Source: Gracilibacillus suaedae (GTDB taxonomy: Bacteria > Bacillota > Bacilli > Bacillales > Amphibacillaceae). Taken from it: a stretch of DNA of 64,000 nucleotides. How positions within the stretch are numbered: position 1 is the first letter of the stretch; every line of letters starts with the position of its first letter. Under the pieces are notes generated by a model. It was not told the origin of the DNA, did no database searches, and saw only the letters and a program-made list of their open reading frames with translations. The stretch is taken from the NCBI RefSeq assembly GCF_017599345.1, contig NZ_JAGFVL010000032.1:1-64000 (forward strand). Reading direction: 5' to 3'. This document shows positions 26,590 through 64,000 of the stretch, piece after piece. The position numbers and the translations under genes were made by a program.

Positions 26590-28503
26590 ATGAATAAAAG
26601 GATCCAACAATTATTAAAACAATTTATCGGTAGGGAAGATCCGGTTACAAGTGACCAACTTGCAACTATACTTCAAGTATCCTCTCGTACAGTGAGAAAC
26701 GATATAAAGATATTAGAGAATGTGTTACAAAAAAATGGTGCACATATATTAGCAGAACGCGGCCAAGGCTATCAATTGCAAATAAAAGATAATTCCCTAT
26801 TCAAATCATATATTGAATCATTATTATTTGAGAAGGGGAGAGTCCCTGTTGAACCAGAAGATCGCATAAAATTTTTAGTAGAAAAATTCTTACTACAATC
26901 TGATTATATAAAAATTGAAGATTTAGTAGAAGAACTATTTGTCAGTCGATCTACTTTGCAGAAAGATTTAAAGGATGTAAAAGTTATACTAGATAAATAC
27001 AAGTTGACGCTAGAGAAAAGGCCAAATTATGGACTTAAAGTGTCAGGTGACGAGAAAAAAATACGTTATGCAATTTCGGAAGAGCTCTTTAAAAGAGATC
27101 AAATGATGCCAACAGATCAGAGTTCCAAAATGTTGCTGCCGAAGGAACAAATGGATCGTATTCAGCAAATAGTCCTCAAACACCTACGAAAGAACCAATT
27201 GAATTTATCGGATATTGCTCTTTCCAATTTAGTGGTTCATATAGCGATTGCTTGCAGGCGAATTGAACAAAACCAGTATATTACTTCGCAATCTATTAAT
27301 TATCAAGATATATTAAATACAAAGGAACATAAAATTGCAGCGGAATTATTAAATGAAGCAGAACAAGCATTACAAATTACTTTTCCTGACGCAGAAATTC
27401 ATTATGTAACCTTACATTTATTAGGAACGAAGATTTTTTTAACGGATCAAAAAAATTCATCCTTACATGACTTTGAAGATCCTATGTTAGAAACAGCTAG
27501 ATCATTAATTAATAAAGTGGACGAGCAATTGGGGTTAGGAATAAAAGAAGATAAAGAATTATTAGCAGGAATAGTTGTCCATCTTAAACCAGCTATTCAT
27601 CGCTATCGAAATGGCATGAATATTAGAAATCCTGTACTTGAAGCAATTAAAGAAAATTATCCAGTAGCATTTGAAGCAGGAGTCATTGCTGGTAAAGTGA
27701 TTGAACAAAAACAAAATATAAAGATAGATGAAAACGAAATCGGATATATTGCTTTACATTTTGGTGCAGCAATTGAAAGAACGAAGCTAGAAAAAAAACC
27801 AAAAAGATGTTTAATTGTTTGTACGACAGGGGTCGGAAGCTCGCAACTATTATTGTATAAATTACGCACAAAATTTGCAAATAAAATATCTATTTTAGGT
27901 ACGACAGAACTACACAATTTAGAACAATACGAGTCCAATGTAGATTTAATTATAAGTACTGTACCACTTCCAGATGATCTCGACATACCGTATGTAATAG
28001 TAAGTACGATTTTAGGTGAACAGGATATAAATTTAATAGAAAAACAATTGGATAATCGTTGCGAGGATATTGTAGATAAATATTTAAATCCAGCACATAT
28101 ATTCTTAAACCAGAATTTTCACTCATCTGAGGAAGTCATTCGGTTCGTAGGGAGAAAGCTGACGGAAGAAGGTTTAGTCAATGATACTTTTTCAGAATCA
28201 GTTTTAGAAAGAGAGAAAGCCGCTTCAACGAGTTATGGAAATTTAGTTGCAATTCCACATCCTTTAGTTCCACAATCTAACCGAACATTTTGGGTATTCT
28301 GTGTATTACAGAATCCTATTCAATGGGGAGAGAACTTAGTTCAATTAGTCTGCTTTCTACATGTAAGCGAAGAAAATAAAGAAGAATTAAAGCCGATGTA
28401 CCAGCACCTCATTAGTTTAGTTGATAATAAGGATATCGTACAAAAAATTATTTATTCGAAATCTCCAGAAGAGCTTTATCAAATATTGAAGGCAATTAGT
28501 TGA
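26590..28503 (+). CDS. LicR/MtlR-type PRD-containing PTS regulator
   Basis: 637 residues, the LicR length. Two N-terminal helix-turn-helix domains are visible (RIQQLLKQFIGREDPVTSDQ, LQVSSRTVRNDI; then VEELFVSRSTLQKDL). Two PRD domains follow (about 180-390), then an EIIB-like domain with the phosphorylatable Cys in IVCTTGVGSSQ and a C-terminal EIIA-like domain (about 500-637) containing IPHPL. Such proteins are activators whose activity is set by HPr- and EIIB-dependent phosphorylation. Here it precedes a lactose/cellobiose-type PTS and a GH1 enzyme, so it most likely activates that module on substrate uptake. AGGAGG is well placed before the ATG. A terminator separates it from the PTS genes. 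Confidence 0.9.
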   Translation: MNKRIQQLLKQFIGREDPVTSDQLATILQVSSRTVRNDIKILENVLQKNGAHILAERGQGYQLQIKDNSLFKSYIESLLFEKGRVPVEPEDRIKFLVEKFLLQSDYIKIEDLVEELFVSRSTLQKDLKDVKVILDKYKLTLEKRPNYGLKVSGDEKKIRYAISEELFKRDQMMPTDQSSKMLLPKEQMDRIQQIVLKHLRKNQLNLSDIALSNLVVHIAIACRRIEQNQYITSQSINYQDILNTKEHKIAAELLNEAEQALQITFPDAEIHYVTLHLLGTKIFLTDQKNSSLHDFEDPMLETARSLINKVDEQLGLGIKEDKELLAGIVVHLKPAIHRYRNGMNIRNPVLEAIKENYPVAFEAGVIAGKVIEQKQNIKIDENEIGYIALHFGAAIERTKLEKKPKRCLIVCTTGVGSSQLLLYKLRTKFANKISILGTTELHNLEQYESNVDLIISTVPLPDDLDIPYVIVSTILGEQDINLIEKQLDNRCEDIVDKYLNPAHIFLNQNFHSSEEVIRFVGRKLTEEGLVNDTFSESVLEREKAASTSYGNLVAIPHPLVPQSNRTFWVFCVLQNPIQWGENLVQLVCFLHVSEENKEELKPMYQHLISLVDNKDIVQKIIYSKSPEELYQILKAIS

Positions 28504-28504
28504 T

Positions 28505-28533
28505 AACTCAGTTTAGAACTGGGTTATTTTTTT
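28505..28533 (+). terminator. Terminator of the LicR-like gene
   Basis: AACTCAGTT/AACTGGGTT stem with a three-base loop, then ATTTTTTT. The remaining 28534-28788 is the promoter region of the PTS genes, in which I see no certain operator. Confidence 0.85.
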
Positions 28534-28788: not shown

Positions 28789-29094
28789 TTGGACTATCAA
28801 GAAACCATTATGGGGATAATCGTCAATGGGGGAAACGCAAGGAGTAATGCGATTCGCTCGATAAAAGAAGCGAAAAAAGGCAATTTCGAAGAAGCTGAGA
28901 AATTACTAGAACAAACAAATGAGGATTTAGCACAAGCTCATCGTGTGCAAACAGACCTTATTCAAGGTGAAGCAAGGGGGGAAAAAACAGAAATCACTCT
29001 ACTGATGATCCACGCACAGGACCATTTAATGAATGCAATGACTGTTAGAGATTTGGCTCGAGAGATTATTGACTTACATCAAAAAATTAACTAA
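28789..29094 (+). CDS. PTS lactose/cellobiose-family EIIA
   Basis: 101 residues from a TTG start eight bases after AAAGGAGG. The all-helical EIIA-Lac fold is recognisable: MGIIVNGGNARSNAIRSIKE, GNFEEAEKLLEQTNEDLAQAH, and the phosphorylation site H75 in LLMIHAQDHLM. It passes phosphate from HPr to the EIIB encoded next. First gene of a probable EIIA-EIIB-EIIC-sulfatase-GH1 operon. Confidence 0.92.
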   Translation: MDYQETIMGIIVNGGNARSNAIRSIKEAKKGNFEEAEKLLEQTNEDLAQAHRVQTDLIQGEARGEKTEITLLMIHAQDHLMNAMTVRDLAREIIDLHQKIN

Positions 29095-29109
29095 ATGGAG
29101 GAACGAAAA

Positions 29110-29418
29110 ATGAAAAATATTTTATTAGTATGTGCTGCAGGTATGTCAACAAGTATGTTAGTGAACAAGATGGAAGAGGCAGCAAAAGATAAGTCAGAAG
29201 AGATTGTGATAAATGCAACTTCTGGTGGGGATCTAAAAAAATACGTTGGAAATGCAGATGTTCTATTATTGGGACCTCAGGTTTCTTATTTACACGAGGA
29301 TTACCAAAAAGAATATGGTGATAGAATCCCTGTCGAGGTGATTAATACTGTAGATTATGGAACGATGAATGGACAAAAGGTATTAGGATGGGCATTAGAA
29401 CTTATTGAAAAGAAATAG
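29110..29418 (+). CDS. PTS lactose/cellobiose-family EIIB
   Basis: 102 residues from ATG 29110. The upstream in-frame ATG 29095 overlaps the stop of EIIA and the GGAGG that serves ATG 29110. The phosphocysteine C8 lies in LLVCAAGMSTSMLV, followed by SGGDLKKYVGNADVLLLGPQ typical of CelA-type EIIB. It phosphorylates the incoming sugar bound to EIIC. Confidence 0.93.
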   Translation: MKNILLVCAAGMSTSMLVNKMEEAAKDKSEEIVINATSGGDLKKYVGNADVLLLGPQVSYLHEDYQKEYGDRIPVEVINTVDYGTMNGQKVLGWALELIEKK

Positions 29419-29442
29419 TTAGATCATTAGAGGAGGTTTATT

Positions 29443-30714
29443 ATGGGGATCGAAAGGCAACAAATCTTAACAAAAATACAGTCAGTGTCCGGAAAAACAA
29501 GTAACAATAGGTATTTAAAAGCAATTTCCAATGGGTTAATCTCTATCTTACCAGTTATCATCATAGGTGCTTTTGCAACTCTTTTAGCAAACATGAACAT
29601 TGGAGGCTATCAAGATTTTATAGAATCAATAGGTTTAAAAACGATGTTCATGATACCCGCTAATGTCACGACTGGAATGTTAGCATTATACACTGTATTT
29701 TTCATTGCATATAGACTGGCATCATATTTTGAGAAAGATGGTGTTGGTGCAGGTTTAATCGCGTTAATTTGTTTTTTAGTCTTAACACCATTGTCCCAGC
29801 TTGATGATGCGAACGTTATACCTGTTGAATATTTAGGAGCTAAAGGACTCTTTGTAGCGATAATTGTCGGACTAACAGTATCAAGATTGTATGTACTAAT
29901 AATAGATAGTAAATTTTTGATTCGATTACCAGATAGCGTCCCACCAACGATTGGGAAATCTTTCAACAACCTTGTTCCAGGAATTGTAATAACAATAATT
30001 TTTACCATTGTAAATGTATTATTTCAATTAACTACTTATGAAAATGTTCATGAATTTATCTATTCGATTCTTCAAGCTCCATTGTTAAATTTAGGTGGGG
30101 GATACTGGTCTTTAGTAGTAATGATTTTAGTTATTCACTTACTATGGTTTATTGGGGTTCACGGGATGTTAGTGGTATTACCTATATATTATAGTATATG
30201 GATGCCACTAGGTCTAGAAAATTTAGATGCCATCGCAGCAGGCGAAACACCTACCAACATTGTTCATACAGGCTTTTACACTACGTTTATTTCACTTGGA
30301 GGTGCAGGTGCAACATTAGGACTATGTATACTAATGGCGTTTTTTGCCAAGAGTAAACGCTACAAGTCGTTAGGAAAAATATCATTACCTGCCTCAATTT
30401 TTAGTATCAATGAACCAATTACTTTTGGTACACCCATTATATTAAATCCATATATGTTTATACCTTTTATCTTTGCACCATTAATAATTGGTACAATATC
30501 TTACTTTACAATGCTTTCCGGTATTATTCCAATAGCTAACGGTACTCACTTGCCAATAGGTACACCTATTATACTTGGACCAATAGTTCAGGGAGGTTTA
30601 ATATTAATTATATGGCAATTCATTTGTATCGGAATGTCCGTTCTAATCTATTATCCATTCTTTCGAGCGTTAGATAGAAAAGCTTTAACAGAAGAAATCT
30701 CTTCCGAGAGTTAA
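29443..30714 (+). CDS. PTS lactose/cellobiose-family EIIC permease
   Basis: 423 residues with about ten hydrophobic segments. Family landmarks are the N-terminal YLKAISNGLISILPVIIIGA, LLWFIGVHGMLVV, SINEPITFGTPIILNPYMFIP and GGLILIIWQFICI. It brings a beta-linked disaccharide-like substrate in with concomitant phosphorylation. It lies 24 bases after the EIIB gene and directly ahead of a sulfatase gene, an unusual PTS partner, implying that the transported sugar is sulfated. Confidence 0.92.
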   Translation: MGIERQQILTKIQSVSGKTSNNRYLKAISNGLISILPVIIIGAFATLLANMNIGGYQDFIESIGLKTMFMIPANVTTGMLALYTVFFIAYRLASYFEKDGVGAGLIALICFLVLTPLSQLDDANVIPVEYLGAKGLFVAIIVGLTVSRLYVLIIDSKFLIRLPDSVPPTIGKSFNNLVPGIVITIIFTIVNVLFQLTTYENVHEFIYSILQAPLLNLGGGYWSLVVMILVIHLLWFIGVHGMLVVLPIYYSIWMPLGLENLDAIAAGETPTNIVHTGFYTTFISLGGAGATLGLCILMAFFAKSKRYKSLGKISLPASIFSINEPITFGTPIILNPYMFIPFIFAPLIIGTISYFTMLSGIIPIANGTHLPIGTPIILGPIVQGGLILIIWQFICIGMSVLIYYPFFRALDRKALTEEISSES

Positions 30715-30732: not shown

Positions 30733-30769
30733 AAGGAGGGGAAAGAGGGGATTCCCTCTTTATGAGATG
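30733..30769 (+). promoter_or_regulatory. Structured ribosome binding site of the first sulfatase
   Basis: AGGAGGGG (about 30734-30741) is more than 25 bases from ATG 30767, too far for normal initiation. Between them AAAGAGGG (30743-30750) pairs perfectly with CCCTCTTT (30754-30761) around GATT, which would bring the two together to about seven bases. A two-codon mini-frame ATG-AGA-TGA (30762-30770) overlaps the start codon. Confidence 0.5.
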
Positions 30770-32200
30770 AGTAAAAAAACTAATATTGTCATGATAGTTG
30801 CAGATCAATGGCGTGCTGATTCTGTCGGATTTCTAGGGAACTCTTCAGTAAGTACACCTAATCTGGATAAATTAGCTAAAGAAGGTGTAGGTTTCTCTAA
30901 TACCTATTGTCAAAATCCAGTATGTGTTCCAAGCCGATGTTCATTTATGACTGGTTGGTATCCACACACAAAAGGTTATCGAACAATGAGGCATCTAATG
31001 GATGATAATGAACCTAACCTATTAAAAACATTAAAAGAATCGGGATATTTTGTTCACTGGGGAGGCAGATCTGACTTTTTGCAAGTTGATGCAGATATTA
31101 GCGCTGTATGTTCCGATAGAAGTGATTTTTTTTCTGAAAAGATGAGGAAGGCAAAAGAACAGAAAAAGAATGAAATAACATCTGAACCAGATTATTCACA
31201 TTATAAAGGTGTGGTTGAAGAAGCTAATCATCCAGATGTAGATCAGATAAATAATGCAATTGAATTAATAGAGGATAAAGAATTTGGTGATGATCCATTC
31301 TGTATTTATTTAGCTCTCTCCTTACCACATCCAGCATATAAGATTGAGGAAGAATGGTACAACCAAATTAGTTCTGCAGACATTGCTAGTCCGATCAGAT
31401 TAAAAGAGGGAGAATGGAATAAAAAGCCTAGTATTTTGCGTGGTATTCATGAAAACCAAAAACTTACCCATTATTCAGATGAGCAATTAAAGGAAATAAA
31501 ACGTGTCTATTATGCGATGGGGACTAAATTAGATGCTCAAATTGGAAATTTAGTTAATACACTAAAAGAAAAAAATCTGTATGATGATACAATGATTATT
31601 TTCTTTAGTGATCATGGCGACTATACTGGTGACTATGAATTAACGGAAAAGAATCAAAATACATTTGAAGATGTAATAACAAGAGTGCCACTTTTAATAA
31701 AGCCTTCTGGACAAACAAAAATAAAACCGCGTATCACAGACGCTTTAGTAGAACTAATTGACGTTCAAGCAACTATTATGGATTTAGTAGATATTGCGCC
31801 GAGTCATACACATTTTGGGAAATCACTTAGAGACGTTCTTGAAGGAAAAGAGCAACATAGAGATGTGGTTTTCTGTGAAGGTGGTAGATTAGAAGGTGAA
31901 GATCATTGTATGGATGCAGGCCATTCTCCGGATAACCCATATTGGGCAAGAACGACCGAACAAGAAAAAATGCCTCAACATACAAAGGCAATGATGATAA
32001 GGGATCATGATTTTAAATATGTTTATCGGTTATATGAAGAAGATGAATTTTATAACCTGAAAGAAGATCCATGGGAGAAAAACAATATAATAGAAGATGA
32101 ACGTTATAAAGAGAAAATATTAGATTTTAAAAATAGAATGTTACTACATTTTTTTGAAACAGGTGATGTTGTCCCACATCGACGAGATAGACGCTTTTGA
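30767..32200 (+). CDS. Sulfatase 1 of 8 (type I, FGly-dependent)
   Basis: 477 residues, cytoplasmic by the absence of a signal peptide. Alkaline-phosphatase fold: metal ligands in IVADQWRADS near the N-terminus, the FGly motif C53-VPSR in NPVCVPSRCSFMTGWYP, and the second ligand pair in FFSDHGDYTGDYEL near 285. The C-terminal FYNLKEDPWEKNNI stretch is typical of choline-sulfatase/arylsulfatase-like enzymes. Cys must be converted to formylglycine, presumably by the enzyme encoded at 40227. It lies between PTS EIIC and a GH1 glycosidase, so it probably removes sulfate from the PTS-imported (phosphorylated) sugar before cleavage. Exact substrate unknown. Confidence 0.9.
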   Translation: MSKKTNIVMIVADQWRADSVGFLGNSSVSTPNLDKLAKEGVGFSNTYCQNPVCVPSRCSFMTGWYPHTKGYRTMRHLMDDNEPNLLKTLKESGYFVHWGGRSDFLQVDADISAVCSDRSDFFSEKMRKAKEQKKNEITSEPDYSHYKGVVEEANHPDVDQINNAIELIEDKEFGDDPFCIYLALSLPHPAYKIEEEWYNQISSADIASPIRLKEGEWNKKPSILRGIHENQKLTHYSDEQLKEIKRVYYAMGTKLDAQIGNLVNTLKEKNLYDDTMIIFFSDHGDYTGDYELTEKNQNTFEDVITRVPLLIKPSGQTKIKPRITDALVELIDVQATIMDLVDIAPSHTHFGKSLRDVLEGKEQHRDVVFCEGGRLEGEDHCMDAGHSPDNPYWARTTEQEKMPQHTKAMMIRDHDFKYVYRLYEEDEFYNLKEDPWEKNNIIEDERYKEKILDFKNRMLLHFFETGDVVPHRRDRRF

Positions 32201-32204: not shown

Positions 32205-33668
<1,464 letters not shown>

Positions 33669-34139: not shown

Positions 34140-34859
34140 GTGGGAAAACCAAAAAGAATACCAAAATACAAAATGATTGAAGATTATATCCTACAAAAAA
34201 TCAAAGGTGGCCAATTTGCAAAAGGTTCACCAATTGAGACAGAACAGGAATTAATAAAGAAATTTAATGTTAGCAGGGTTACTGTACGTCAAGCAACCAA
34301 TAATCTGGTGGCAAAAGGATTTCTTTCTCGAAGTCAAGGAAGTGGAACATATGTTACCAATCAAAAGGTAATTGAACGGTCTACTCATGTAAAAAGTTTC
34401 ACTGAAGAGATGCTGGAAACAGGAAAACAGCCATCAACGGATATAATCGAATTTAAAGTAATCCCTTCAAATGAGGAGATAGCAAATAAATTGGCCATTA
34501 CAAAAGGGGAACCAATTTATTATATAAAAAGGTTACGAAAAGCAGATAATATGCCAATGATGCTTGAGACTAATTTCATGGAAGTTCAAAAATATCCTGA
34601 TTTATCTTATGATCGTATTCGGAAGTCTAAATATGAATTTATTGAGGGATACACCAAGGAAACGATAGACCAATCTCACCATATCGTTGTCCCAATAATG
34701 CCATCAGATGAAATTGTAAACTATTTTAATTGTGATCCTTCAACCCCTTTATTGAAAGTACTAAACACTACTTATCTGTCTAACGGGCAAATATTAGATT
34801 ATACGGAATTAATATTAAATGGAGAAGAATATCAATATCAATCGATACGTGGAAGGTAG
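34140..34859 (+). CDS. GntR/HutC-family transcriptional regulator
   Basis: 239 residues from GTG 34140 behind AGAGGTGGG. The N-terminal winged helix (YKMIEDYILQKIKGGQFAKG, PIETEQELIKKFNVSRVTVR, QATNNLVAKGFLSRSQGSGT) is followed by a UTRA effector domain (residues ~85-239: KSFTEEMLETGKQPSTDIIE, YYIKRLRKADNMPMMLETNF). HutC-subfamily members usually sense a sugar phosphate or amino sugar. It precedes a glucose-type PTS permease and sulfatase, which it probably represses until substrate enters. Own promoter TATAAT at 34092-34097. Confidence 0.9.
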   Translation: MGKPKRIPKYKMIEDYILQKIKGGQFAKGSPIETEQELIKKFNVSRVTVRQATNNLVAKGFLSRSQGSGTYVTNQKVIERSTHVKSFTEEMLETGKQPSTDIIEFKVIPSNEEIANKLAITKGEPIYYIKRLRKADNMPMMLETNFMEVQKYPDLSYDRIRKSKYEFIEGYTKETIDQSHHIVVPIMPSDEIVNYFNCDPSTPLLKVLNTTYLSNGQILDYTELILNGEEYQYQSIRGR

Positions 34860-35112: not shown

Positions 35113-36702
35113 ATGTTGAAAGATAAACTAATAGAGTTTGGACAAAGACTTGGAAAAGCTATTTTATTACCTGTTGCGATTCTTCCTGTTGCAGGATTAT
35201 TGCTAGGTATTTCTGCAGCTTTATCCGGAGAAGCAGTTATAGAAAGTTATCCATTTTTGGATAACACTATTTTACAAGCGATTTTGAGCTTAATGAATGC
35301 TGCTGGTTCTGGTGTATTTGATGCCTTACCATTAATTTTCGCAATTGGGATTGCAGTTGGTTTAGCTAGAAGAGAAAAAGGTTCTGCTGGATTGGCCAGT
35401 GTTGTTGGTTATTTTGTACTCATTATTACGATTAATTCCCTACTTGATATTACTGGTCAACTTGCAACAGGAGATATGGACCCACGTTTAGTTGGACAAG
35501 GTGCACAATTTGGTATTATGACATTACAAATGGGAGTGTTCGGTGGTATTTTAGCAGGTATTATCACAGGATTAGTTCATAACCGCTTTTATAATATAAA
35601 ATTACCAGAATTTCTTGCCTTTTTTGGTGGGTCACGCTTTGTTCCAATTGTTAATACCTTTGTATTCTTAATTGTTGGTTCGATTATGTTTATTGTATGG
35701 CCATTCATTGGAAACGCTATAGCTAGTTTTGGAGAATTTGCGACTGGTCTGGGAACTTTCGGAGCATTCTTATATGGGCTCTTGTTAAGAACACTATATC
35801 TTTTTGGTTTACACCATGTGTTCTATCTACCATTTTGGACAACTGCTGCTGGGGGAACAATGGAAGTTGGTGGTCAAGTATATGAAGGATTTCAAACTAT
35901 CTTCTTGGCACAGTTATCTGATCCAAACACGACACAGTTCTTTAGTAATTTAGCTTTATTTAATAGTGGTCGTTATTTGCACATGATGTTCGGAATGGTC
36001 GGGATCGTTTTGGCTATGTATAAAACGATTCCAGCAGGGCCAAAAAGAAAGGCAACATCTGGATTTTTAATATCTGTTGGATTGACAGCATTTATCACAG
36101 GGGTAACAGAACCAATTTCTTTTGCCTTACTTTTTGCATCACCATTATTATTTGTTGCTGAAGCCATCTTATTCGCTTGTAGTTTTGTCGTAGCTAGCTT
36201 GTTTAATATTACGATTGGCTCAACCTTTTCAGCAGGTCTGGTGGAATTTCTCTTATTTGGTGTATTCCAAGGAAATGATAAGACAAATTATTTATGGGCA
36301 ATCTTATTAGCTATTCCAATCATATTTGTCTACTACTTCGTCTTTAAAACATTAATTGTAAAACTAAACGCTAAAACACCTGGTAGAGACGATGAAGAAA
36401 TTACAGAAGAAGAGAAAAATGCAAATAGTTCTTATGAAGGTGGGCAAGCGCAACGCATTATTGAGGGGTTAGGTGGTTTCAACAATATTACTGATATCGA
36501 TAATTGTGCAACACGCTTAAGAGTATCTGTAAAAAAACCTGACCAAATTAATGCCAATGTGTTAAAACAAACTGGTGCAATGAATACTGTTGTACGAGGT
36601 AAAGCGATACAAGTTATTTATGGACCAAAGGTTAATACGATTCGGGGAGAGATAGACGAATTTATTGATGAGAAAAATATTGAGCATTTAAAGCAAAAAT
36701 AG
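35113..36702 (+). CDS. PTS glucose/maltose/GlcNAc-family EIICB permease
   Basis: 529 residues: an EIIC membrane domain (about 10-420; KAILLPVAILPVAGLLLGI, LARREKGSAGLASVVGYFV, GLHHVFYLPFWTTAAGG, GVTEPISFALLFASP) fused to an EIIB domain (about 440-529) with phosphocysteine C465 in DIDNCATRLRVSV. No EIIA domain is fused; a separate one is encoded at 38201. The family imports glucose, maltose, N-acetylglucosamine and related sugars as phosphates. Flanked by GntR and a sulfatase related to N-sulfoglucosamine sulfohydrolases, it may transport a sulfated hexose or amino sugar (inference). Confidence 0.92.
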   Translation: MLKDKLIEFGQRLGKAILLPVAILPVAGLLLGISAALSGEAVIESYPFLDNTILQAILSLMNAAGSGVFDALPLIFAIGIAVGLARREKGSAGLASVVGYFVLIITINSLLDITGQLATGDMDPRLVGQGAQFGIMTLQMGVFGGILAGIITGLVHNRFYNIKLPEFLAFFGGSRFVPIVNTFVFLIVGSIMFIVWPFIGNAIASFGEFATGLGTFGAFLYGLLLRTLYLFGLHHVFYLPFWTTAAGGTMEVGGQVYEGFQTIFLAQLSDPNTTQFFSNLALFNSGRYLHMMFGMVGIVLAMYKTIPAGPKRKATSGFLISVGLTAFITGVTEPISFALLFASPLLFVAEAILFACSFVVASLFNITIGSTFSAGLVEFLLFGVFQGNDKTNYLWAILLAIPIIFVYYFVFKTLIVKLNAKTPGRDDEEITEEEKNANSSYEGGQAQRIIEGLGGFNNITDIDNCATRLRVSVKKPDQINANVLKQTGAMNTVVRGKAIQVIYGPKVNTIRGEIDEFIDEKNIEHLKQK

Positions 36703-38200: not shown

Positions 38201-38668
38201 ATGTTTAAAAGTTTATTTAAGAAATCAACTTTTGTTAGTCCTGTTACAGGAACAATAAAAAATATTAAGGACGTTGCAGATGAATCCTTTGCTCAAAAAA
38301 TGCTCGGCGACGGATTTGCCATTAAACCAGAGAGCAATCAGATTAAGTCTCCTGTCAATGGCGAGGTTGCCTTTGTGTTTGATACAAAGCACGCTATTGG
38401 TTTGAAGTCATCTGATGGCTTAGAAATATTGATTCATGTAGGTGTAGATACTGTTAATCTAAAAGGTGAAGGATTTAGCGCTCATGTAAAAAACAATCAA
38501 AAAATCAAGCAAGGAGATTTATTACTAACTGTAGATTTTGACGAAATTCAGTCAAAAGTACCGTCAATCGATGTAATTGTTGTATTTAGTAATGGGGAAA
38601 CATGCACGGTGCATAAACCCGGCCAACCAGTAACTGAACTGGAAAAAGATATAATAACGGTAAAATAG
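38201..38668 (+). CDS. PTS glucose-family EIIA (Crr/YpqE type)
   Basis: 155 residues, start four bases after the sulfatase stop (GGGGAG as ribosome binding site inside it). Barrel-sandwich EIIA-Glc fold: FVSPVTGTIKNI, GDGFAIKPESNQIKSPVNGE, FDTKHAIGL with the first His, and the phosphorylated H79 in ILIHVGVDTV. It supplies the phosphate relay missing from the EIICB at 35113, so the three genes EIICB-sulfatase-EIIA form one functional unit. Confidence 0.92.
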   Translation: MFKSLFKKSTFVSPVTGTIKNIKDVADESFAQKMLGDGFAIKPESNQIKSPVNGEVAFVFDTKHAIGLKSSDGLEILIHVGVDTVNLKGEGFSAHVKNNQKIKQGDLLLTVDFDEIQSKVPSIDVIVVFSNGETCTVHKPGQPVTELEKDIITVK

Positions 38669-47646: not shown

Positions 47647-47662
47647 CAAAGGAGCTATGATA

Positions 47663-55416: not shown

Positions 55417-55493
55417 GTTCATTTGCGTCTGTAAAAAAACGGTATATTCTAAGAATGATAGAATGAATGGAATAAATAAAAGAGGTGATTTGT

Positions 55494-57722
55494 GTGATTG
55501 AATATATGCATAATAAAAACGGCCCTACTCTTGGTTACTCTTTTCAATCAGGTATCAAGATAATAGAAGAAAAGGGCCTTTATTTCAAAGATCTCAATAA
55601 AAGCGGCCACTTAGAACCTTACAAAGATTGGCGCCTACCAGCTGAAGAACGAGCAAAAGACTTGGCTTCCAAACTATCTATCGAAGAAATTGCTGGATTA
55701 ATGCTATATAGTCGTCACCAATCGATTCCTGCGAAGCCAAGAGGTCCATTCGCTAGTACTTATGATGGTAAGCCATTTGATGAGAGAATGGCCAATTCAT
55801 GGGACTTATCGGATCAGCAAAAAGAATTTCTAATTAAAGACCATTTACGTCATGTATTAGTGACATCTGTTGAAAGCCCTGAGGTAGCTGTAAAATGGAA
55901 CAATAATGTACAAGCAATAGTAGAGAGTGTTGGATTTGGTATTCCTGCTAATAATAGTTCAGACCCTCGTCATGCAAGTGATGCGAGTAAAGAGTTTAAT
56001 GAAGGCGCAGGCGGACAGATCTCCATGTGGCCAGAAAGCCTTGGTTTAGCAGCTACATTTAGTCCAGAAATTGTTCGGCAATTCGGTGAAATTGCTGCGA
56101 AGGAATATCGTGCCCTTGGCTTAACCACTGCTTTATCCCCACAAGTGGATATTGCTACTGACCCACGCTGGTATCGGTTTGAAGGTACATTTGGAGAAGA
56201 TCCGAAGCTTTCAACTGATTTAGGGAGAGCCTACATCGATGGGTTCCAAACCTCAACAGGAAGTGCAGAAATAGAAGCGGGTTGGGGATTTGATAGTGTT
56301 AATACGATGGTGAAGCATTGGCCAGGTGGTGGCTCTGGAGAAGCAGGACGTGATGCGCATTGGGGCTTTGGTAAATATGCGGTCTATCCTGGTGACAATT
56401 TTGATGAACATTTACAACCATTTACAGAAGGGGCTTTCCAATTAGAAGGTAAAACGAAAAAAGCTGCTGCCGTCATGCCTTATTATACGATATCTTATGA
56501 ACAAGATAAGGTTAATAAAGAGAATGTAGGAAACTCTTACAGTCAATACTTGATTAAGGACTTACTTCAAGGAACCTATCAATACGATGGTGTGGTTTGT
56601 ACTGATTGGTTAATTACTGCTGATGAACCAGAAAGCGTTGATCAATTTGCGGGAAAACCATGGGGAGTAGAAGAATTAACAGTCGCAGAGCGCCATTACA
56701 AACTACTAATGGCTGGTGTGGACCAATTCGGTGGTAATAATGAGATGGGACCGATTTTGGAAGCGTATCAAATGGGTGTTGCTGAACACGGAGAAACCTT
56801 TATGCGTCAGCGGATGGAGCAGTCAGCTGTGAAGTTATTAAAAAATATTTTCCGTACAGGTCTGTTTGAAAATCCATATTTAGATGTGCGAGAAAGTGCA
56901 GAAAAAGTCGGGCATCCTCATTTTATGCGCGAAGGTTACCAAGCACAATTGAAATCGCTTGTTATGCTTAAGAATAGGAAAGCAATGCTACCAATCATGA
57001 AAAAGCAAACGGTATATATTCCAAAAAGGTACTACCCAGAACAAGTGGATTGGTTTGGAAATAAAATTTCGGATAAAATGGAGTATCCGATTCATGTAGA
57101 CATGGTGAAGCAGTATTATGATGTTACAGATGATCCAAAACAAGCCGATTTTGCCCTTGTTTGTATGAAAGGACCAGACTCTGGTGACGGATATTGTAAG
57201 GAAGATCGAGAAGCTGGTGGTTCAGGGTATGTTCCCATCAGCTTACAATATCGCCCATATGACGCAACAGAAGCGCGTTCACCAAGTATTGCAGGAGATA
57301 CGCGTGAAGTAATAGACAGGTCTTATCAAGGGAAAAAAGTAGTGGCTAGTAATGAATCAGACTTAGATTTGATTTTAGAAACAAAAGAAAAGATGCAAGA
57401 TAAACCAGTGATTGTGTCATTGCATTTATCCAATCCAGCGATTGTTTCAGAATTTGAACCTTATGCCGATAGTATTCTCGTTCACTTTGGTGTGCAAGAT
57501 CAAGCTATATTAGATATTATTTCTGGTAATGTGGAACCTTCTGGATTATTACCAATGCAAATGCCAGATGATATGGAAACCGTAGAGAAGCAATGTGAGG
57601 ATGTACCACATGATATGGAGTGTTATGTTGATGAAGAGGGAAATAAATATGATTTTGCATTTGGCTTGAACTGGGATGGAATCATCAGGGATGAACGGAC
57701 GGAAAAATATCGAAAGGGATAA
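55494..57722 (+). CDS. GH3-family glycoside hydrolase
   Basis: 742 residues from GTG 55494, six bases after GAGGTGA; GTG 55485 sits inside that ribosome binding site. The GH3 N-terminal barrel shows GLTTALSPQVDIATDPRWYR, FGEDPKLSTDLGRAYIDGFQ, VKHWPGGGSGEAGRDAHWGF and nucleophile D371 in GVVCTDWLITADEP. The GH3_C half follows (LKSLVMLKNRKAMLPI, ADFALVCMKGPDSGDGYCKE). Exo-acting, retaining beta-glycosidase by family; glucose, xylose or other sugars are possible. No signal peptide, so it acts on imported oligosaccharides. GH3 enzymes with this very long insert-rich N-terminus are not the common BglX type. Confidence 0.9.
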   Translation: MIEYMHNKNGPTLGYSFQSGIKIIEEKGLYFKDLNKSGHLEPYKDWRLPAEERAKDLASKLSIEEIAGLMLYSRHQSIPAKPRGPFASTYDGKPFDERMANSWDLSDQQKEFLIKDHLRHVLVTSVESPEVAVKWNNNVQAIVESVGFGIPANNSSDPRHASDASKEFNEGAGGQISMWPESLGLAATFSPEIVRQFGEIAAKEYRALGLTTALSPQVDIATDPRWYRFEGTFGEDPKLSTDLGRAYIDGFQTSTGSAEIEAGWGFDSVNTMVKHWPGGGSGEAGRDAHWGFGKYAVYPGDNFDEHLQPFTEGAFQLEGKTKKAAAVMPYYTISYEQDKVNKENVGNSYSQYLIKDLLQGTYQYDGVVCTDWLITADEPESVDQFAGKPWGVEELTVAERHYKLLMAGVDQFGGNNEMGPILEAYQMGVAEHGETFMRQRMEQSAVKLLKNIFRTGLFENPYLDVRESAEKVGHPHFMREGYQAQLKSLVMLKNRKAMLPIMKKQTVYIPKRYYPEQVDWFGNKISDKMEYPIHVDMVKQYYDVTDDPKQADFALVCMKGPDSGDGYCKEDREAGGSGYVPISLQYRPYDATEARSPSIAGDTREVIDRSYQGKKVVASNESDLDLILETKEKMQDKPVIVSLHLSNPAIVSEFEPYADSILVHFGVQDQAILDIISGNVEPSGLLPMQMPDDMETVEKQCEDVPHDMECYVDEEGNKYDFAFGLNWDGIIRDERTEKYRKG

Positions 57723-57869: not shown

Positions 57870-59093
57870 CTACAACTTTTCCTTATACTGTTTAGGAGTT
57901 AACCCGACATGCTTTCTAAATGTTTTTGTGAAATAACTTTGATCATTGAAATTTAATAAAGTTGATATTTTAAGCAGTGAATAGTCTGTTAAACTTATTA
58001 AGGATTTTGCTTCGTCGATTTTTGACTGTAGAATATAATCTCTAATATTTACTCCCACCTCTAACTTAAACAATTTAGACAAATAACTAGGGTGCAAACT
58101 AACTGCTTCAGCTAAGTCAGCAAGAGTGATAGTGTCATATAAATGATTAAATATATAGTTTAACGTTTTATTAATAGGTTTTGAGAAGTTTTGCTGTCTA
58201 GCCTTTTGAACACGCTCAGCAAATTCACAAAGAATTTCTTCGATATAAACATCTATCTCATTTGTTTTATTGATGTCCTCTATATTTTGTATATATAAGT
58301 CACTCAGTGTATAAGCAGTTTCATAATGAAGGCCACCTTTTATAGCCGCTCTAGTAGCCAAAGTTATCGCAGCTATTCCAAAGTTTTTTTTGTGTCTGAG
58401 ATAACTTTTTTTGGACAAAATACCTAATTTACCTGATTCTGGTACAGCTCTATAATTGGTTAGTACATCATCTTTTTTTCCTTGCTCTATCGCCTTAAAT
58501 ACCTTTTTTTCTTGTGTATCATCATGATGTAATGATAAACTTTGTCTTTTGTTCGAAATAATGAGGTTAGGATTGGTAATCTGTTTCGCTTTTTGAGCGA
58601 TTTCACTACTCAGTTGTTTCACATCTTCTGAACTTATCTTGACTTGGTAGATCATATAGTATAGTTGTTTGGCTAAAATAATGACTTTATTTAATTTTAA
58701 AGTTGGTAATGATAAAAAATATTGAACAAAGTCCTCTTTATCGTTGTCACTTAATTCAACATCATTCTTTAATAAATCTACAATTTCCTCTGAAGGTGAG
58801 TCTGCCATTATTGGTCCAATAATTAGTTGTCCACGCTGATCGACATAAGGAATATTTAGAGTTATAAATGTTTCTAAGTACATGGTTGTAACAATTATTG
58901 GGTGGTGAACCTCTGTATTTAATTGCGAAAATAACTCTTTTTTTGACGAAATTAATGGGTTTAGAGAAAAATTAGAGGTGTATTCATTTATTATATTTCC
59001 TGTATTATCAAGAAGGAAGATCGGAATATTATGGTAATCAAATATTAATTTAGTAATATATTTTAATTCTGTTATGTTTATTTTAGTTTCCAT
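57870..59093 (-). CDS. AraC-family transcriptional regulator with N-terminal sensory domain
   Basis: 407 residues from ATG 59093 (METKINITELKY), preceded by GAGAGGG; longer starts have no ribosome binding site. Residues 1-150 form a PAS/PocR-like sensory part (NIPIFLLDNTGNIINEYTSN, GQLIIGPIMADSPSEE). The middle is helical. The last 100 residues are an AraC DNA-binding domain with two helix-turn-helix motifs (ITLADLAEAVSLHPSYLSKL, FKLEVG; LLKISTLLNFNDQSYFTKTF, LTPKQYKEKL). It is divergent from the GPH symporter gene, which with the following sulfatase and GH3 genes is its likely target. Confidence 0.88.
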   Translation of the reverse strand: METKINITELKYITKLIFDYHNIPIFLLDNTGNIINEYTSNFSLNPLISSKKELFSQLNTEVHHPIIVTTMYLETFITLNIPYVDQRGQLIIGPIMADSPSEEIVDLLKNDVELSDNDKEDFVQYFLSLPTLKLNKVIILAKQLYYMIYQVKISSEDVKQLSSEIAQKAKQITNPNLIISNKRQSLSLHHDDTQEKKVFKAIEQGKKDDVLTNYRAVPESGKLGILSKKSYLRHKKNFGIAAITLATRAAIKGGLHYETAYTLSDLYIQNIEDINKTNEIDVYIEEILCEFAERVQKARQQNFSKPINKTLNYIFNHLYDTITLADLAEAVSLHPSYLSKLFKLEVGVNIRDYILQSKIDEAKSLISLTDYSLLKISTLLNFNDQSYFTKTFRKHVGLTPKQYKEKL

Positions 59094-59245
59094 TCGATCC
59101 CTCTCTGTACAATGATTCAACCATCTAATTGGAAGTATAACATATTGCAACCCGAAAATTTTAAATTAAAGCTAATAAAACACCAAAAAAATCAATTAAA
59201 CACAAAACACAACACCGACTTTTGTCTAAAATGGATGTTAGTTAG

Positions 59246-59259: not shown

Positions 59260-59367
59260 GAAAGGGTTTTATTAGAAGGGGGAATAATGCTAGTTATAGA
59301 TTGATAGAGAATATTTAGAAAATTGGATTAATTGAAAGCGTTAAAAATTTTTAGTGAGGTGAGGATA

Positions 59368-60750
59368 TTGGAACAAGTAAATTATCGAACATCTACCAAA
59401 AGTGAAGTTTTTAGATATGCGTTTGGTGGATTGGGATCAAATATTCCTTTTCAAATAATCTTGACATATTTAATGTTTTTCTATACTGATATAATTGGAA
59501 TAGCTCCAGCTGTAGTAGGAACGCTTTTTTTTGTTACTAGATTTATTGATGCGGTAAGCGATCCTATAATGGGAGTAATTGCAGATCGAACTAGTTCTCG
59601 ATTTGGACAATATCGTCCTTGGTTAATTTTTGGAGCACCCTTATTAGGAATTAGTACACTTGCGTTATTTTGGGTTCCAGACTTATCAGCAGAAATGAAA
59701 ATAGTATATATTTATGTTACCTATATTTCTTATTCGTTGATCTCAACTGCAGTTAATATTCCGTATCACTCGTTAACTCCTGTTCTTAGTGAAGACCCCG
59801 ATCAAAGAACTTGGTTAGCAACCGCAAAACAATTTATGGCAATACCAGCATTAATGTGTGCTCAAGTTTTAATTTTACCAATGGTAAGTTTTTTCGGAGA
59901 TGGAGAACAAGGATGGTTTATTTCGATTGCGATATTTTCCGTTATTATCGTCGCAAGTTTTTGGTTGTGCGCGAGTAGTGCCAATAGACATGATAATGCT
60001 TTTCCAAAGAAAACAGTAAAGAGAAAAAAACAAACCCCACTTAAAGGACAATTATTGCTAATAGCTAAAAATAAACCGTTACTTATGCTCATGATAGCAA
60101 TGTGTACTAACTTAATTGCTTCATCTGCACAAAGTGCGGTAGCTCTTTACTATTGGACTTATAACGCTGAAAGACCAGAATTATTTCCAATCCTATCTTT
60201 TGTAGGTTTAGGATTATCTATTCCCGTATTTTTCTTATTGCCGAAGTTTTCTAAAAAGTTTGGTAAAAAATCCACTTTTCTATACGGTAGTATTGTTTCG
60301 ATCCTCCCATTTGTCGTATTGTTATTAGCCCCATATGAAATGGTTTGGCTTAATTTCTCAGCAGCAGTTGCTATGAATGTTTTGATGCCGTTTACTGGAG
60401 CAATACCATGGGCAATGCTTCCAGACTGTGTAGATTATGGTGAATGGAAAACAGGTATTCGAGGTGCAGGTGTCGTTTCTTCTAGTTTAACTTTTATTAA
60501 TAAACTTGGAAGCGCTGTTGGTGGGATGATTGGAGGTGCCTTATTAGGAGTTGCAGGATACGTTGCTGGTCAATCCCAATCACCTGAGACCTTAAGAATG
60601 ATTGTATATTTATATGCTCTATTACCTATTTTGGGCCATATTTTTACTATTATTGCACTTAAATTTTATAAGCTTGATAACAAATTACATGCACAAATGT
60701 TAAAAGAGATTAAATCTAGAAAAGAAAGTCAACCTACTGTATCTGAGTAA
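59368..60750 (+). CDS. GPH-family sugar:cation symporter
   Basis: 460 residues from TTG 59368, behind GAGGTGAGG; the upstream in-frame TTG 59332 has no ribosome binding site. Twelve hydrophobic segments and GPH signatures: FRYAFGGLGSNIPFQIILTY, RFIDAVSDPIMGVIADRTSS, RFGQYRPWLIFGAP, NIPYHSLTPVLSEDPDQRTW, and DYGEWKTGIRGAGVVSSSLT. The family (MelB, XynB/YnaJ, UidB types) imports glycosides, pentosides and hexuronides with H+ or Na+. No EIIA-like C-terminal domain. It opens the last module with sulfatase 8 and a GH3 enzyme. Confidence 0.92.
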   Translation: MEQVNYRTSTKSEVFRYAFGGLGSNIPFQIILTYLMFFYTDIIGIAPAVVGTLFFVTRFIDAVSDPIMGVIADRTSSRFGQYRPWLIFGAPLLGISTLALFWVPDLSAEMKIVYIYVTYISYSLISTAVNIPYHSLTPVLSEDPDQRTWLATAKQFMAIPALMCAQVLILPMVSFFGDGEQGWFISIAIFSVIIVASFWLCASSANRHDNAFPKKTVKRKKQTPLKGQLLLIAKNKPLLMLMIAMCTNLIASSAQSAVALYYWTYNAERPELFPILSFVGLGLSIPVFFLLPKFSKKFGKKSTFLYGSIVSILPFVVLLLAPYEMVWLNFSAAVAMNVLMPFTGAIPWAMLPDCVDYGEWKTGIRGAGVVSSSLTFINKLGSAVGGMIGGALLGVAGYVAGQSQSPETLRMIVYLYALLPILGHIFTIIALKFYKLDNKLHAQMLKEIKSRKESQPTVSE

Positions 60751-60793
60751 GAAGGTCTGTTTATTAAAGTGGTAAATAAAGGAGATGTATGCT

Positions 60794-62569
60794 ATGAAAG
60801 CAATAATGGTTATGTTTGATTCATTAAACAGACATATGTTGCCACCATATGGTTGTGATTGGGTTCACGCTCCCAACTTTAAAAGATTAGCAGAAAAAAC
60901 AGTTACATTTGACAATGCTTATGTCGGAAGTTTACCTTGTATGCCGGCAAGACGAGACTTACATACAGGAAGGTACAACTTTCTGCATAGAAGCTGGGGG
61001 CCACTTGAGCCTTTTGACCATTCTATGCCAGAAATTTTGAAGAATAATGGTGTCTATACCCATTTAGTATCCGATCATCAACATTATTGGGAAGACGGTG
61101 GAGCAACTTATCATACCCGTTACAATTCTTGGGAGAGCATTAGGGGACAAGAAGGGGATCCATGGAAAGGTCATGTAGAAGACCCAGTTTTTCCTGAAAC
61201 AGAAGTCCCTGAAATGAAGGAGTTTCCATTGTTTCGTCAAGACGTGATTAACCGAGAATATTACAAAGAAGAAAAAGATCATCCACAAGCATTAACATTC
61301 GAAGCGGGCTTAGAATTTATTGATAAAAATAAGGACCAAGATCAATGGTTTTTGCAATTAGAAACATTTGATCCACATGAGCCTTTTACTTCTTATCAAA
61401 AATATAAGGACTTGTATCCTCACGAATATGAAGGAAAGCAATTTGATTGGCCTCCTTACTATTTTGTAAGAGAGGATGAACAAACGGTTGAGCATGGTAA
61501 GTATGAGTATGCTGCATTATTAAGCATGTGTGATCACTATTTAGGTAAAGTACTCGATATGATGGATGAAAATAACATGTGGGAAGACACGATGTTAATT
61601 GTTAATACGGATCATGGCTACTTATTAGGAGAGCATGGCTGGTGGTCAAAATCAATTATGCCAGTGTATCAAGAAATTGCGCATATTCCAATGTTTATCT
61701 GGGATCCTAGATATAAAATAAAAGGAGAGCATCATGATGAAATTATGCAATTGATTGATATTGCGCCAACATTATTAGAATTTTTCGATTTAGATATTCC
61801 AAAGGAGATGACGGGTAGGCCAATAGGTGATCTATTTAAAGAGAATTACAAGGAAAAAGAAGCTGCCTTATTTGGATTTCACGGAGGGCATGTAAATATA
61901 GTGGATAAAGAACATGTCTATATGAGAGGACCGGTATCACCATCTAATCAACCACTATATGAGTACACGTTAATGCCGACGCATATGCGAAGTATGTTTT
62001 CAGTTAATGAATTGAAAGAAATAGAGCTTGCAGAACCATTTAAATTTACACGTGGGGCAAAAGTGCTGAAAATAGAAGCTGGTTCAGGTTTTGTGAATCC
62101 CTTTCAATATGGTTCAATGCTCTATAACATTGAAAAAGATCCGAAACAAGAAAATGAAATAGAAGATGTAGAAATAGAACAAAAACTGATTAAGCAAATG
62201 GTGAAGATAATGAAGCAACATGAAGCACCTGATGAACAATTTGAAAGGTTAGGTATACCAAAAGATGGGCAGATTACCAATGATGAACTAACACAACAAA
62301 AAGAAAGAACCAGAGAAGCAGAAAAGATTGGTATTCTCAATAATTATTCGTGGACAAAAGTTGCTCAGAATAAAGTTCGTGCATTGTTAAATTCTACTCC
62401 AAAGGAAAATAGAACAGCAGTTATTGATAAACTAGAAGATTATATTCATAATGTGTCCGTAAAAAGTATAGATGGTGAAGTAATTAATTCCTTTGTGGAT
62501 AATCATTTTGAAAGTGCAGAGCAAGAAAAGATTAAATATTTTATTAACCTTGCAGGAAGAACTAGTTAA
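60794..62569 (+). CDS. Sulfatase 8 of 8 (CMPAR type)
   Basis: 591 residues from ATG 60794; ATG 60785 overlaps the AAAGGAGATG ribosome binding site. Start MKAIMVMFDSLNRHMLPPYG, FGly C49-MPAR in GSLPCMPARRDLHTGRYNFL, ETFDPHEPF, and VNTDHGYLLGEHGWWSKS near 275. It is a paralogue of the sulfatase at 47663 but carries about 90 extra C-terminal residues, helical and charged (LTQQKERTREAEKIGIL, then IDKLEDYIHNVSVKS). No signal peptide. It lies 43 bases after the GPH symporter gene and 81 bases before a GH3 gene, suggesting cytoplasmic desulfation of the symporter's substrate. Confidence 0.9.
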   Translation: MKAIMVMFDSLNRHMLPPYGCDWVHAPNFKRLAEKTVTFDNAYVGSLPCMPARRDLHTGRYNFLHRSWGPLEPFDHSMPEILKNNGVYTHLVSDHQHYWEDGGATYHTRYNSWESIRGQEGDPWKGHVEDPVFPETEVPEMKEFPLFRQDVINREYYKEEKDHPQALTFEAGLEFIDKNKDQDQWFLQLETFDPHEPFTSYQKYKDLYPHEYEGKQFDWPPYYFVREDEQTVEHGKYEYAALLSMCDHYLGKVLDMMDENNMWEDTMLIVNTDHGYLLGEHGWWSKSIMPVYQEIAHIPMFIWDPRYKIKGEHHDEIMQLIDIAPTLLEFFDLDIPKEMTGRPIGDLFKENYKEKEAALFGFHGGHVNIVDKEHVYMRGPVSPSNQPLYEYTLMPTHMRSMFSVNELKEIELAEPFKFTRGAKVLKIEAGSGFVNPFQYGSMLYNIEKDPKQENEIEDVEIEQKLIKQMVKIMKQHEAPDEQFERLGIPKDGQITNDELTQQKERTREAEKIGILNNYSWTKVAQNKVRALLNSTPKENRTAVIDKLEDYIHNVSVKSIDGEVINSFVDNHFESAEQEKIKYFINLAGRTS

Positions 62570-62650
62570 GCGTAATAGTAAGTTCTATCGTGAACATACA
62601 GGCAGTTAGCTCTGTGTAAATCCTTAAACAAAAGATACGGAGGTTCAAAA

Positions 62651-64000
62651 ATGACAAGAAATATCTCAAGATTAATAGAACAGATGACGATTGAAGAAAA
62701 AGCAGGAATGTGCTCCGGATTAGATTTTTGGTATTTAAAAGGTGTGGAACGATTAGGGATCCCTTCCATAATGGTAACAGATGGCCCGCACGGTCTACGA
62801 AAGCAAGCAGAAGACGCAGATCATTTAGGTTTAAGTAATAGTGTTCCTGCAACCTGTTTTCCTTCAGCAGTAGGTCTGGCAAGCTCATGGGATCGAGATC
62901 TAGTTAATAAAGTTGGTGTTGCTTTAGGGGAAGAAGCACAGGCTGAGAAAGTTGGTGTTTTACTTGGTCCTGGTGCGAATATTAAACGCTCGCCGTTATG
63001 TGGAAGGAATTTCGAATATTTTTCAGAGGATCCATATTTGTCATCAGAAATGGCTGCTAGTCATATTAAAGGTGTACAAAGTCAAGGAGTCGGTACTTCC
63101 TTAAAACACTTTGCAGCAAATAATCAAGAACATCGTCGTATGTCTACAAATGCTGTCGTAGATGAACGTACTTTAAGAGAGATCTATCTTGCTAGTTTCG
63201 AACAAGTAGTAAAGAAGGCTGAACCTTGGACTGTCATGTGTTCCTATAATAAAGTAAACGGAGAGTTTGCTGCGGAAAGTAAAAACTTATTAACAGACAT
63301 TCTAAGAGACGAATGGGGTTTTAACGGATTTGTTGTTTCGGATTGGGGTGCTGTTAATGAGCGAGTTGATGGACTGAAAGCAGGACTTGAGCTTGAAATG
63401 CCTGCAAGTAAAGGTATAGGGGAAAATAAAATTCTATCAGCAATTGAATCTGGTGAGCTAACAGAAGAATCACTTGATCAAGCAGTTGAACGATTATTGC
63501 GGATTATCTTTATGGCTGTTGACAATCAAAAAGAAAATGCAAGCTATGATAAACAGGATCATCATCAATTAGCGAAGCAAGTAGCAAGTGAAGGGATGGT
63601 TCTACTTAAAAATGACGAAGAAATTCTCCCGTTATCAACAGACAACCATGTCGCGGTTATAGGTGCACTTGCTAAACAACCAAGATATCAGGGTGGGGGA
63701 AGCTCACATATTAATCCAACCTACCTAGACGATATTTATGAAGAAATAGAACGGTCAGTATCAAGCAAAGCTAATATTGCATATGCTCAAGGTTATCACT
63801 TGGAAAGTGATCATATCGATAAAAAATTAATCGAAGAAGCTAAACAAACAGCATTAGAAGCAGATAAAGCGATTTTATTTATAGGCTTGCCAGACCGTTA
63901 TGAGTCAGAAGGGTATGATCGTACCCATTTGAACATTCCAGAAAATCAACGACAATTAATGGAGGAAGTTGCCCAAGTTCAACCAAATGTGATCGTGGTC
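62651..64000 (+). CDS. GH3-family beta-glycosidase (3' end outside window)
   Basis: 450 codons are present and the frame is open at the window edge, so only the N-terminal barrel and the start of the C-terminal domain are seen. ATG 62651 follows ACGGAGG at seven bases. Landmarks: [76 protein letters not shown], nucleophile D231 in [20 protein letters not shown], and [19 protein letters not shown]. This is the common BglB-like GH3 type with the shared catalytic plan, no signal peptide. It differs clearly from the GH3 at 55494. Third gene of the symporter-sulfatase-GH3 module. Confidence 0.92.

Follow-up and report, generated by a model that had tools for sequence, protein, structure and literature searches.

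How a Gram-positive cell might use sulfated sugars, and where the sulfate would be removed and disposed of, is the question raised by a sulfatase-rich locus in the salt-loving, Gram-positive bacterium Gracilibacillus suaedae. The window, i.e., the whole stretch of DNA analysed, comprises 64 kb at the start of a contig of 279,641 bp (NZ_JAGFVL010000032.1, C29) in a genome of 4.65 Mb. The region from position 26590 to contig position 67606, past the window end, is quite probably a composite locus for glycan utilisation of the Gram-positive type, with its enzymes acting in the cytosol. An earlier note on this DNA had listed eight sulfatases, one formylglycine-generating enzyme (FGE), one glycoside hydrolase (GH) of family 1 and two of family 3, together with four uptake systems, namely two phosphotransferase systems (PTS), one ATP-binding cassette (ABC) transporter and one GPH transporter. 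All of them were found by profile search, with the second GH3 extending past the window, and a pair of CHR genes, an anaerobic sulfatase-maturating enzyme (anSME) beyond the window and a second FGE on contig C14 were added to the list. The genes of the locus are given below; sulfatases S1 to S5, S7 and S8 were assigned by PF00884, motif and hydropathy.

26590..28503, + strand: PRD/EIIA-type regulator of the lac-PTS module (NCBIfam AcpB/EbpR/MafR, 145.9 bits against a cut-off of 130; fructose-type IIA domain)
28789..30714, +: lac/cellobiose-family PTS IIA, IIB and IIC (TIGR00823, 127.6, below 136.95; TIGR00853, 102, below 110; TIGR00410, 341.5, over 236; gaps of 0 and 24 bp)
30767..32200, +: sulfatase S1 (CVPSR)
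32235..33668, +: GH1 6-phospho-beta-glucosidase (NF007158, 789.6 over 639; NF007356, 781.8 over 623; NF007154, 658.6 over 624; PF00232)
34140..34859, +: GntR-family regulator (GntR-family models, all below their own cut-offs)
35113..36702, +: glc-family PTS IIBC (TIGR02002, 466 bits, below the cut-off of 591.8)
36817..38196, +: sulfatase S2 (CSPSR)
38201..38668, +: glc-family PTS IIA (TIGR00830, 156 bits over 97.5)
39059-39643 (CHR1) and 39659-40195 (CHR2), +: split short-chain CHR pair, candidate sulfate exporter (PF02417, 172.8 and 160.7 bits)
40227..41171, +: FGE, cytosolic, with an N-terminal SCCQVSR tail (PF03781, 277 bits)
41399..43989, +: sensor kinase (dCache-HAMP-His_kinase) and AraC-type response regulator (Pfam domains)
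44018..47646, +: CUT1 ABC importer, comprising a substrate-binding protein (SBP) and two permeases, no adjoining ATPase gene (PF01547, PF00528 twice)
47657..49165, +: sulfatase S3 (CMPAR)
49143..50726, +: sulfatase S4, non-canonical CAVAR motif
50755..52086, +: sulfatase S5 (CAPSR)
52112..53770, +: sulfatase S6 (CAPSR), S1_8-like with a C-terminal CHB_HEX_C_1 domain (9bb9, S1_8A, E 2.5e-83, 284 bits; Pfam)
53825..55372, +: sulfatase S7 (CAPSR)
55485..57722, +: divergent GH3 glycosidase (PF00933, PF01915; best NCBIfam score 98.7 bits against a cut-off of 1330)
57870..59150, - strand: AraC-family regulator (domain search)
59332..60750, +: GPH/MFS_2 sugar symporter (PF13347, 327 bits)
60785..62569, +: sulfatase S8 (CMPAR)
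62651..64948 on the contig, +: second GH3, cut by the window end (62651..64000 in the window; profile match; resembles exo-alpha-L-arabinopyranosidase, 899 against a cut-off of 1300)
65068-66360 on the contig: anSME, about 1.1 kb past the window (TIGR03942, 419 bits against a cut-off of 349.45)
66419-67606 on the contig: ROK regulator, past the window

The cellular location of these enzymes was assessed by a hydropathy scan over the first 50 residues of the longest open reading frames (ORFs), each running from the first ATG, GTG or TTG after a stop, so no upstream start was missed. In all nine sulfatases of the contig (S1 to S8 and S9, which starts at contig position 111845), the PF00884 match of these longest possible frames starts at residue 3-11, leaving no room for a signal peptide. 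The hydropathy maximum among the nine sulfatases, FGE, GH1 and the two window GH3 enzymes was 2.1 (S3), compared with 2.6-3.2 for five lipoprotein controls; S3 and S8 (1.4) carry two charged residues inside the hydrophobic stretch, a segment that forms the first strand of the fold. One positive control, the SBP at 44018, failed with a score of 1.66, as its longest ORF begins about 35 codons ahead of the lipoprotein signal, a type of failure that cannot mask sulfatase signals given where their PF00884 match begins. A further control, drawn from the 22-23-residue offset of S1 or S6 against the PDB chains 7oz8 and 9bb9, was dropped, since 9bb9 is described as cloned into pET28a without its signal peptide and the offset is more likely a tag.

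The same layout was observed in a wider sample, consisting of the best 80 of at least 577 confirmed FGE matches (31 of these loci carry Bacillales record titles by our own count) and, for the sulfatase test, two plasmid loci. In a crude test, rough because many frames are over-extended in GC-rich genomes, 76 of 78 sulfatases showed no signal-like extension; the two positives were from loci L026, probably an over-extended frame, and L086, and a twin-arginine-like sulfatase in L049 fell below the threshold. By contrast, signal peptides are reported for most sulfatases of the sulfatase-rich Kiritimatiellales, 354 in one strain and 339 in another (PMC6388578). The cytosolic layout therefore seems general for sulfatases adjoining this kind of FGE rather than special to this locus. 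Cytosolic sulfatases and cytosolic maturation are thus well supported, from which it follows that uptake precedes desulfation. The earlier note had read the locus in this way from the missing signal peptides; its order of events is likely, although it is neither unusual nor peculiar to this locus.

Based on gene content and order, the locus could work as follows. Four importers (lac-type PTS, glc-type PTS, CUT1 ABC and GPH symporter), each adjoining its own regulator (26590, 34140, 41399-43989 and 57870), would take up small sulfated sugars. The sulfatases encoded next to each importer would receive their formylglycine in the cytosol, from the O2-dependent FGE under aerobic conditions and from the radical S-adenosylmethionine enzyme anSME when O2 is absent. 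They would then strip sulfate before or alongside the action of the 6-phospho-beta-glucosidase on PTS products and of GH3 on ABC and GPH products, and the CHR pair ahead of FGE would export the freed sulfate. With an FGE in the window and an anSME 1.1 kb beyond it, two maturation routes are predicted. The window FGE keeps Cys281 and Cys286, which we take to be its catalytic pair, invariant in 45 aligned rows, and its ATG is preceded by the ribosome-binding-site-like GTGAGGGG; the anSME is the sole match over cut-off in the genome. If this scheme is true, Gram-positive bacteria could feed on sulfated sugars and keep the desulfated products out of reach of competitors, but the sulfate released would burden their cytosol.

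The spacing of the genes suggests several transcription units, because gaps are short within groups (IIC-S1 52 bp, S1-GH1 34 bp, S2-IIA 4 bp, permease-S3 10 bp, and -23 to 54 bp from S3 to S7, where S4 overlaps S3 by 23 bp) and 147-471 bp separate most groups. A catabolite-repression (cre-like) pattern gave 0 matches in the window against 0.41 expected, and promoter-like matches in 26000-45900 were not enriched (81 versus 88.4 in shuffles).

The disposal of sulfate is approached through the CHR pair. CHR1 (194 aa) and CHR2 (178 aa), each with a single PF02417 domain, lie 15 bp apart and 31 bp from FGE. Such a pair occurs in 12 of the 80 FGE loci, all of them Bacillales, and in every case it lies upstream of FGE on the same strand, with the order CHR1-CHR2-(ROK)-FGE. 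The distance to FGE is about 34-225 bp in seven loci and 1270-1511 bp in five, each of the latter showing a ROK match. By chance, about 0.2 loci within 2.5 kb would be expected, assuming a density of two CHR loci per 3.7 Mb and with relatedness uncorrected. In a comparison set of 100 family genomes (99 beside the source genome), CHR genes are present in 99 and FGE in 42; among the matches listed, CHR genes adjoin FGE in G000, G047 (= L007) and G040. In G040 (L089:2485-12733), ROK fills the gap of a CHR1-CHR2-ROK-FGE array, and the adjoining GH35, SIS-domain protein, NagA-like amidohydrolase and class-II aldolase suggest an amino-sugar/galactose pathway. G030 has its CHR pair in divergent orientation to an anSME that is 72% identical to that of the source genome. 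In a tree of 27 CHR1 rows, 3 changes account for the maturase-linked label, versus 9.1 after shuffling (0 of 500 shuffles as low), and the maturase-linked sequences cluster without forming one supported clade.

Some CHR proteins expel chromate, and short-chain members are about 180 aa long with one PF02417 domain each, as described in PMC5699817. Since chromate resembles sulfate, sulfate export would be the simplest function, and by this analogy we infer that the CHR pair is a candidate sulfate exporter. TauE/SafE proteins were also considered as a general exporter and rejected, being present in only 3 of the 80 loci in a search that was not exhaustive: in L010 it lies some 6 kb away from FGE, in L014 on the opposite strand and in L019 next to anSME and FGE. 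Because TauE genes are common and the search was of this kind, the link is weak except in L019.

The FGE itself shows a second feature. It starts with MDEKKRSCCQVSR (40227-40265), and a cysteine pair (CC) stands ahead of the FGE core in 82 of 85 loci, or 79 of 82 after removing three repeats of the same genomes. Arg is found at CC+4 in 67/82 and Pro, Ala or Val at CC+2 in 71/82. In an alignment of 45 rows chosen for CC, Arg13 is kept in 43, the entropy of columns 15-35 is 3.25-3.72 bits, and the tail holds a full CxPxR in 20; the tail motif is thus conserved among the relatives, unlike the linker. Within the first 80 residues, CC...R occurs in 4 of 839 other ORFs versus 32 of the 45 FGE ORFs recognised by a simple pattern in the same loci. 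The tail was noted in the second FGE, on C14 (L006:6363-7313), and across loci L007-L086, and the record titles of the FGE set include Bacillota, Actinomycetota, Chloroflexota, haloarchaea and Spirochaetota. Judged by its residues, the CCx[P/A/V]xR tail resembles the CxPxR motif of FGE's own substrates. In an AlphaFold model, tail residues 1-27 have a predicted local distance difference test (pLDDT) score below 50, with parts of 287-302 also low, a confidence that leaves docking of the tail neither shown nor excluded.

A review states that an N-terminal extension with C50 and C52 is present only in the FGE of higher eukaryotes (PMC7279497). The cysteine-pair tail of bacteria and archaea disagrees with this statement. 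The bacterial tail may be homologous to the human one. The review also reports that changing C50/C52 of human FGE to alanine abolished sulfatase activation in cells (PMC7279497), and elsewhere the extension is given as dispensable for activity in vitro (PMC4505483). The literature search yielded no paper that, judged by its title, concerned the bacterial tail.

Taken together, these features lead to a tentative proposal that we hold a serious possibility, though somewhat short of probable: the split CHR pairs of Bacillales would be physiological sulfate exporters of cytosolic desulfation, with the CHR1-CHR2-(ROK)-FGE arrangement coupling sulfatase maturation to sulfate disposal and chromate a fortuitous substrate, and the FGE tail, probably flexible, would imitate CxPxR and maybe regulate or prime FGE, the human cysteine-pair tail then being an old feature. 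If true, the linkage would assign a physiological task to transporters that are widespread yet known chiefly for chromate, and the bacterial tail would allow the role of the human cysteine pair to be studied in simple bacteria.

Several observations count against the cytosolic locus and its sulfate exporter as drawn here. The locus is divided into modules that each have a regulator, which makes joint function a proposal from gene content, and a strong terminator-like hairpin lies at 33673, directly after GH1 (12 such sites versus 9.2 in shuffles). That the substrates are sulfated is predicted from gene content, which does not point to one particular glycan. S4 lacks the canonical motif, and the six window sulfatases compared with the PDB besides S6 (S1 to S5 and S7) gave superfamily-level matches with no clear subfamily. 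No CHR pair was detected in 68 of the 80 FGE loci, some of them truncated by contig ends; G036 has a ROK-CHR pair yet no FGE match; and the literature, judged by titles or the start of abstracts, gave no link of CHR to sulfatases or sulfate transport.

The substrates are most open to another reading. They may be small sulfated glycosides (plant sulfated phenolic or flavonoid glucosides, glucosinolate-like compounds) and sulfated monosaccharides rather than polysaccharide fragments, where the PTS phosphorylates glucose, a sulfatase desulfates and the 6-phospho-beta-glucosidase frees the aglycone. The pairing of a lac-type PTS with one sulfatase and a GH1 that exceeds three 6-phospho-beta-glucosidase subfamily cut-offs fits well here. 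Neither a polysaccharide lyase family nor an endo-glycanase was found among the scanned genes of the locus (26590-64948 for the lyases), and GH88/GH105 (PF07470) gave 0 matches in the genome with a model that matched in 3 of 14 controls; a PL8 (polysaccharide lyase family 8) profile found nothing over the genome, though its control was equally silent, so that this result has no weight. S6 points the same way: its top five PDB sequences are S1_8A/B/C enzymes, the nearest being S1_8A (9bb9), and S1_8 enzymes are described as 2-O-sulfatases, S1_8A being interpreted as a galactose-2-sulfate monosaccharide sulfatase (PMC12549532).

On the other side, eight different sulfatases, GH3 and an ABC importer exceed the needs of one small glycoside, and three GH16 genes elsewhere in the genome could release oligosaccharides. 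Small sulfated glycosides are possible but rather improbable, and we infer that oligosaccharides are substrates of the cytosolic locus. The joint function suggested earlier is weakened by the separately regulated modules, and the suggested sulfated-oligosaccharide class by the monosaccharide-specific nearest characterised relative of S6 and the lack of a GH88 match in the genome. The PTS phosphorylates the C6 position of sugars on transport. Since C6-sulfated disaccharides are held unsuitable for the PTS in PMC5430744, S1 and S2 should meet sugars sulfated elsewhere than C6.

The CHR pair could also represent ordinary chromate-resistance genes that lie beside FGE with no functional link. The near-ubiquity of CHR genes in the family (99 of 100 genomes), the expulsion of chromate by known CHR proteins (PMC5699817) and the retention of ROK and CHR without FGE in G036 are in keeping with this. 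That 12 of 80 FGE loci share gene order and strand, where roughly 0.2 would be expected under the density assumed and with relatedness uncorrected, and that the CHR1 tree needs 3 changes versus 9.1 make it unlikely, and sulfate export is preferred.

Several of the sulfatases might instead be formylglycine-dependent phosphonate monoester or phosphodiester hydrolases of the same superfamily. All eight exceed the PF00884 cut-off (starts 30767, 36817, 47657, 49143, 50755, 52112, 53825 and 60785), and none reaches the cut-off of any NCBIfam sulfatase model; S1, S3 and S4 have further matches to PehA-type hydrolases and to structures of phosphonate monoester hydrolases. The PehA scores are far under the cut-off of 900, however, and S6 is clearly S1_8-like, so that such hydrolases are a decidedly unlikely account and the sulfatase assignment is retained. 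The CxPxR consensus of FGE (PMC4505483) is present in seven of the eight, the exception being S4, whose CAVAR lacks the Pro. From this motif, S4 may be poorly matured, matured by anSME only, or inactive; a search for its orthologues gave no match at a self-set threshold of E<=1e-100 in the 99 other family genomes.

That the sulfatases serve sulfur supply rather than carbon, with sulfate esters imported for their sulfate, is highly improbable: sulfur scavenging is a frequent sulfatase role, but these enzymes are embedded among sugar importers, glycosidases and sugar-type regulators, and CHR or TauE proteins encoded next to the maturases would, if they do act as exporters, work against that purpose.

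Systems of this kind are already known as Gram-positive polysaccharide utilisation loci (gpPULs), defined by degrading enzymes, transporters and regulators in one locus (PMC9067506), and what is added here is the CHR linkage, two maturation routes and the FGE tail. The GH1, two GH3, four importers with PTS and ABC uptake, and regulators conform to the gpPUL, unlike the eight sulfatases, two kinds of maturase and CHR pair beside FGE, and unlike the lack of a lyase among the scanned genes and of GH88 in the genome; the lyase gene that marks a glycosaminoglycan (GAG)-specific gpPUL was not found among the scanned genes of 26590-64948. In Streptobacillus moniliformis, sulfated-GAG disaccharides are likewise imported, with sulfatase and unsaturated glucuronyl hydrolase (UGL) predicted in the cytoplasm (PMC5430744), though that outer-membrane cell uses one ABC importer, one sulfatase and UGL, in contrast to four importers, eight sulfatases and no UGL found here. 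The Pseudoalteromonas lambda-carrageenan locus (S1_8A/B/C) shares an S1_8A resembling S6 but differs in that its enzymes have predicted signal peptides and its breakdown is described as periplasmic (PMC12549532). The CHR genes agree with described short-chain chromate transporters in size and single PF02417 domain, here as a pair, and differ in their link to sulfatase maturation genes.

Comparison of the neighbourhood in relatives, which the earlier note had suggested, revealed similar gene sets in Amphibacillus marinus (IIBC 88%, S2 76%, TauE, anSME, FGE), Paenibacillus plantarum (relatives of S5, S7, GH3, S6 and FGE with ABC permeases) and a Niallia taxi megaplasmid (FGE, S8, two GPH, S1, PTS, GH1). 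The nearest FGE among the matches listed with named records is that of Gracilibacillus orientalis (82% identity). A similar sulfatase set also exists outside Bacillales, since the clostridial plasmid OY725881.1 of Subdoligranulum variabile (L109) carries relatives of S9, S1, S5 and S8, a piece of S4, and a GH3 with a kinase/regulator pair.

Elsewhere in the source genome, contig C14:6453-17253 (L006:1454-12254) encodes an antiterminator (CAT_RBD, PRD domains), PTS IIBCA, a sulfatase 42.9% identical to S8 and the adjoining second FGE (L006:6363-7313). Downstream of this FGE, iolC/iolB/mmsA-like genes were noted by eye, with a divergent TauE/SafE gene nearby. A third cluster on C29, past the window (103885-113311, L003), comprises LacI, a lipoprotein-like SBP, two permease-like genes, a BglX-like GH3 and S9, which is 60% identical to S7. 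A 117-aa ORF at L003:12184-12534, between GH3 and an endonuclease/phosphatase-like gene, has no Pfam or NCBIfam match and is possibly a gene remnant. The remaining PF00884 gene, on C11 (630 aa), looks like a lipoteichoic acid synthase. Altogether, PF00884 was matched 12 times in the genome (by 11 genes, one of them in two pieces), more often than in any other of the 100 family genomes (median 3); many matches listed in the others are frames of 620-670 aa, presumably the size of lipoteichoic acid synthase. Apart from the locus, a GC-rich stretch (52%) is followed at window positions 3008-4323 by 14 clustered tRNA genes, an arrangement to be expected behind an rRNA operon.

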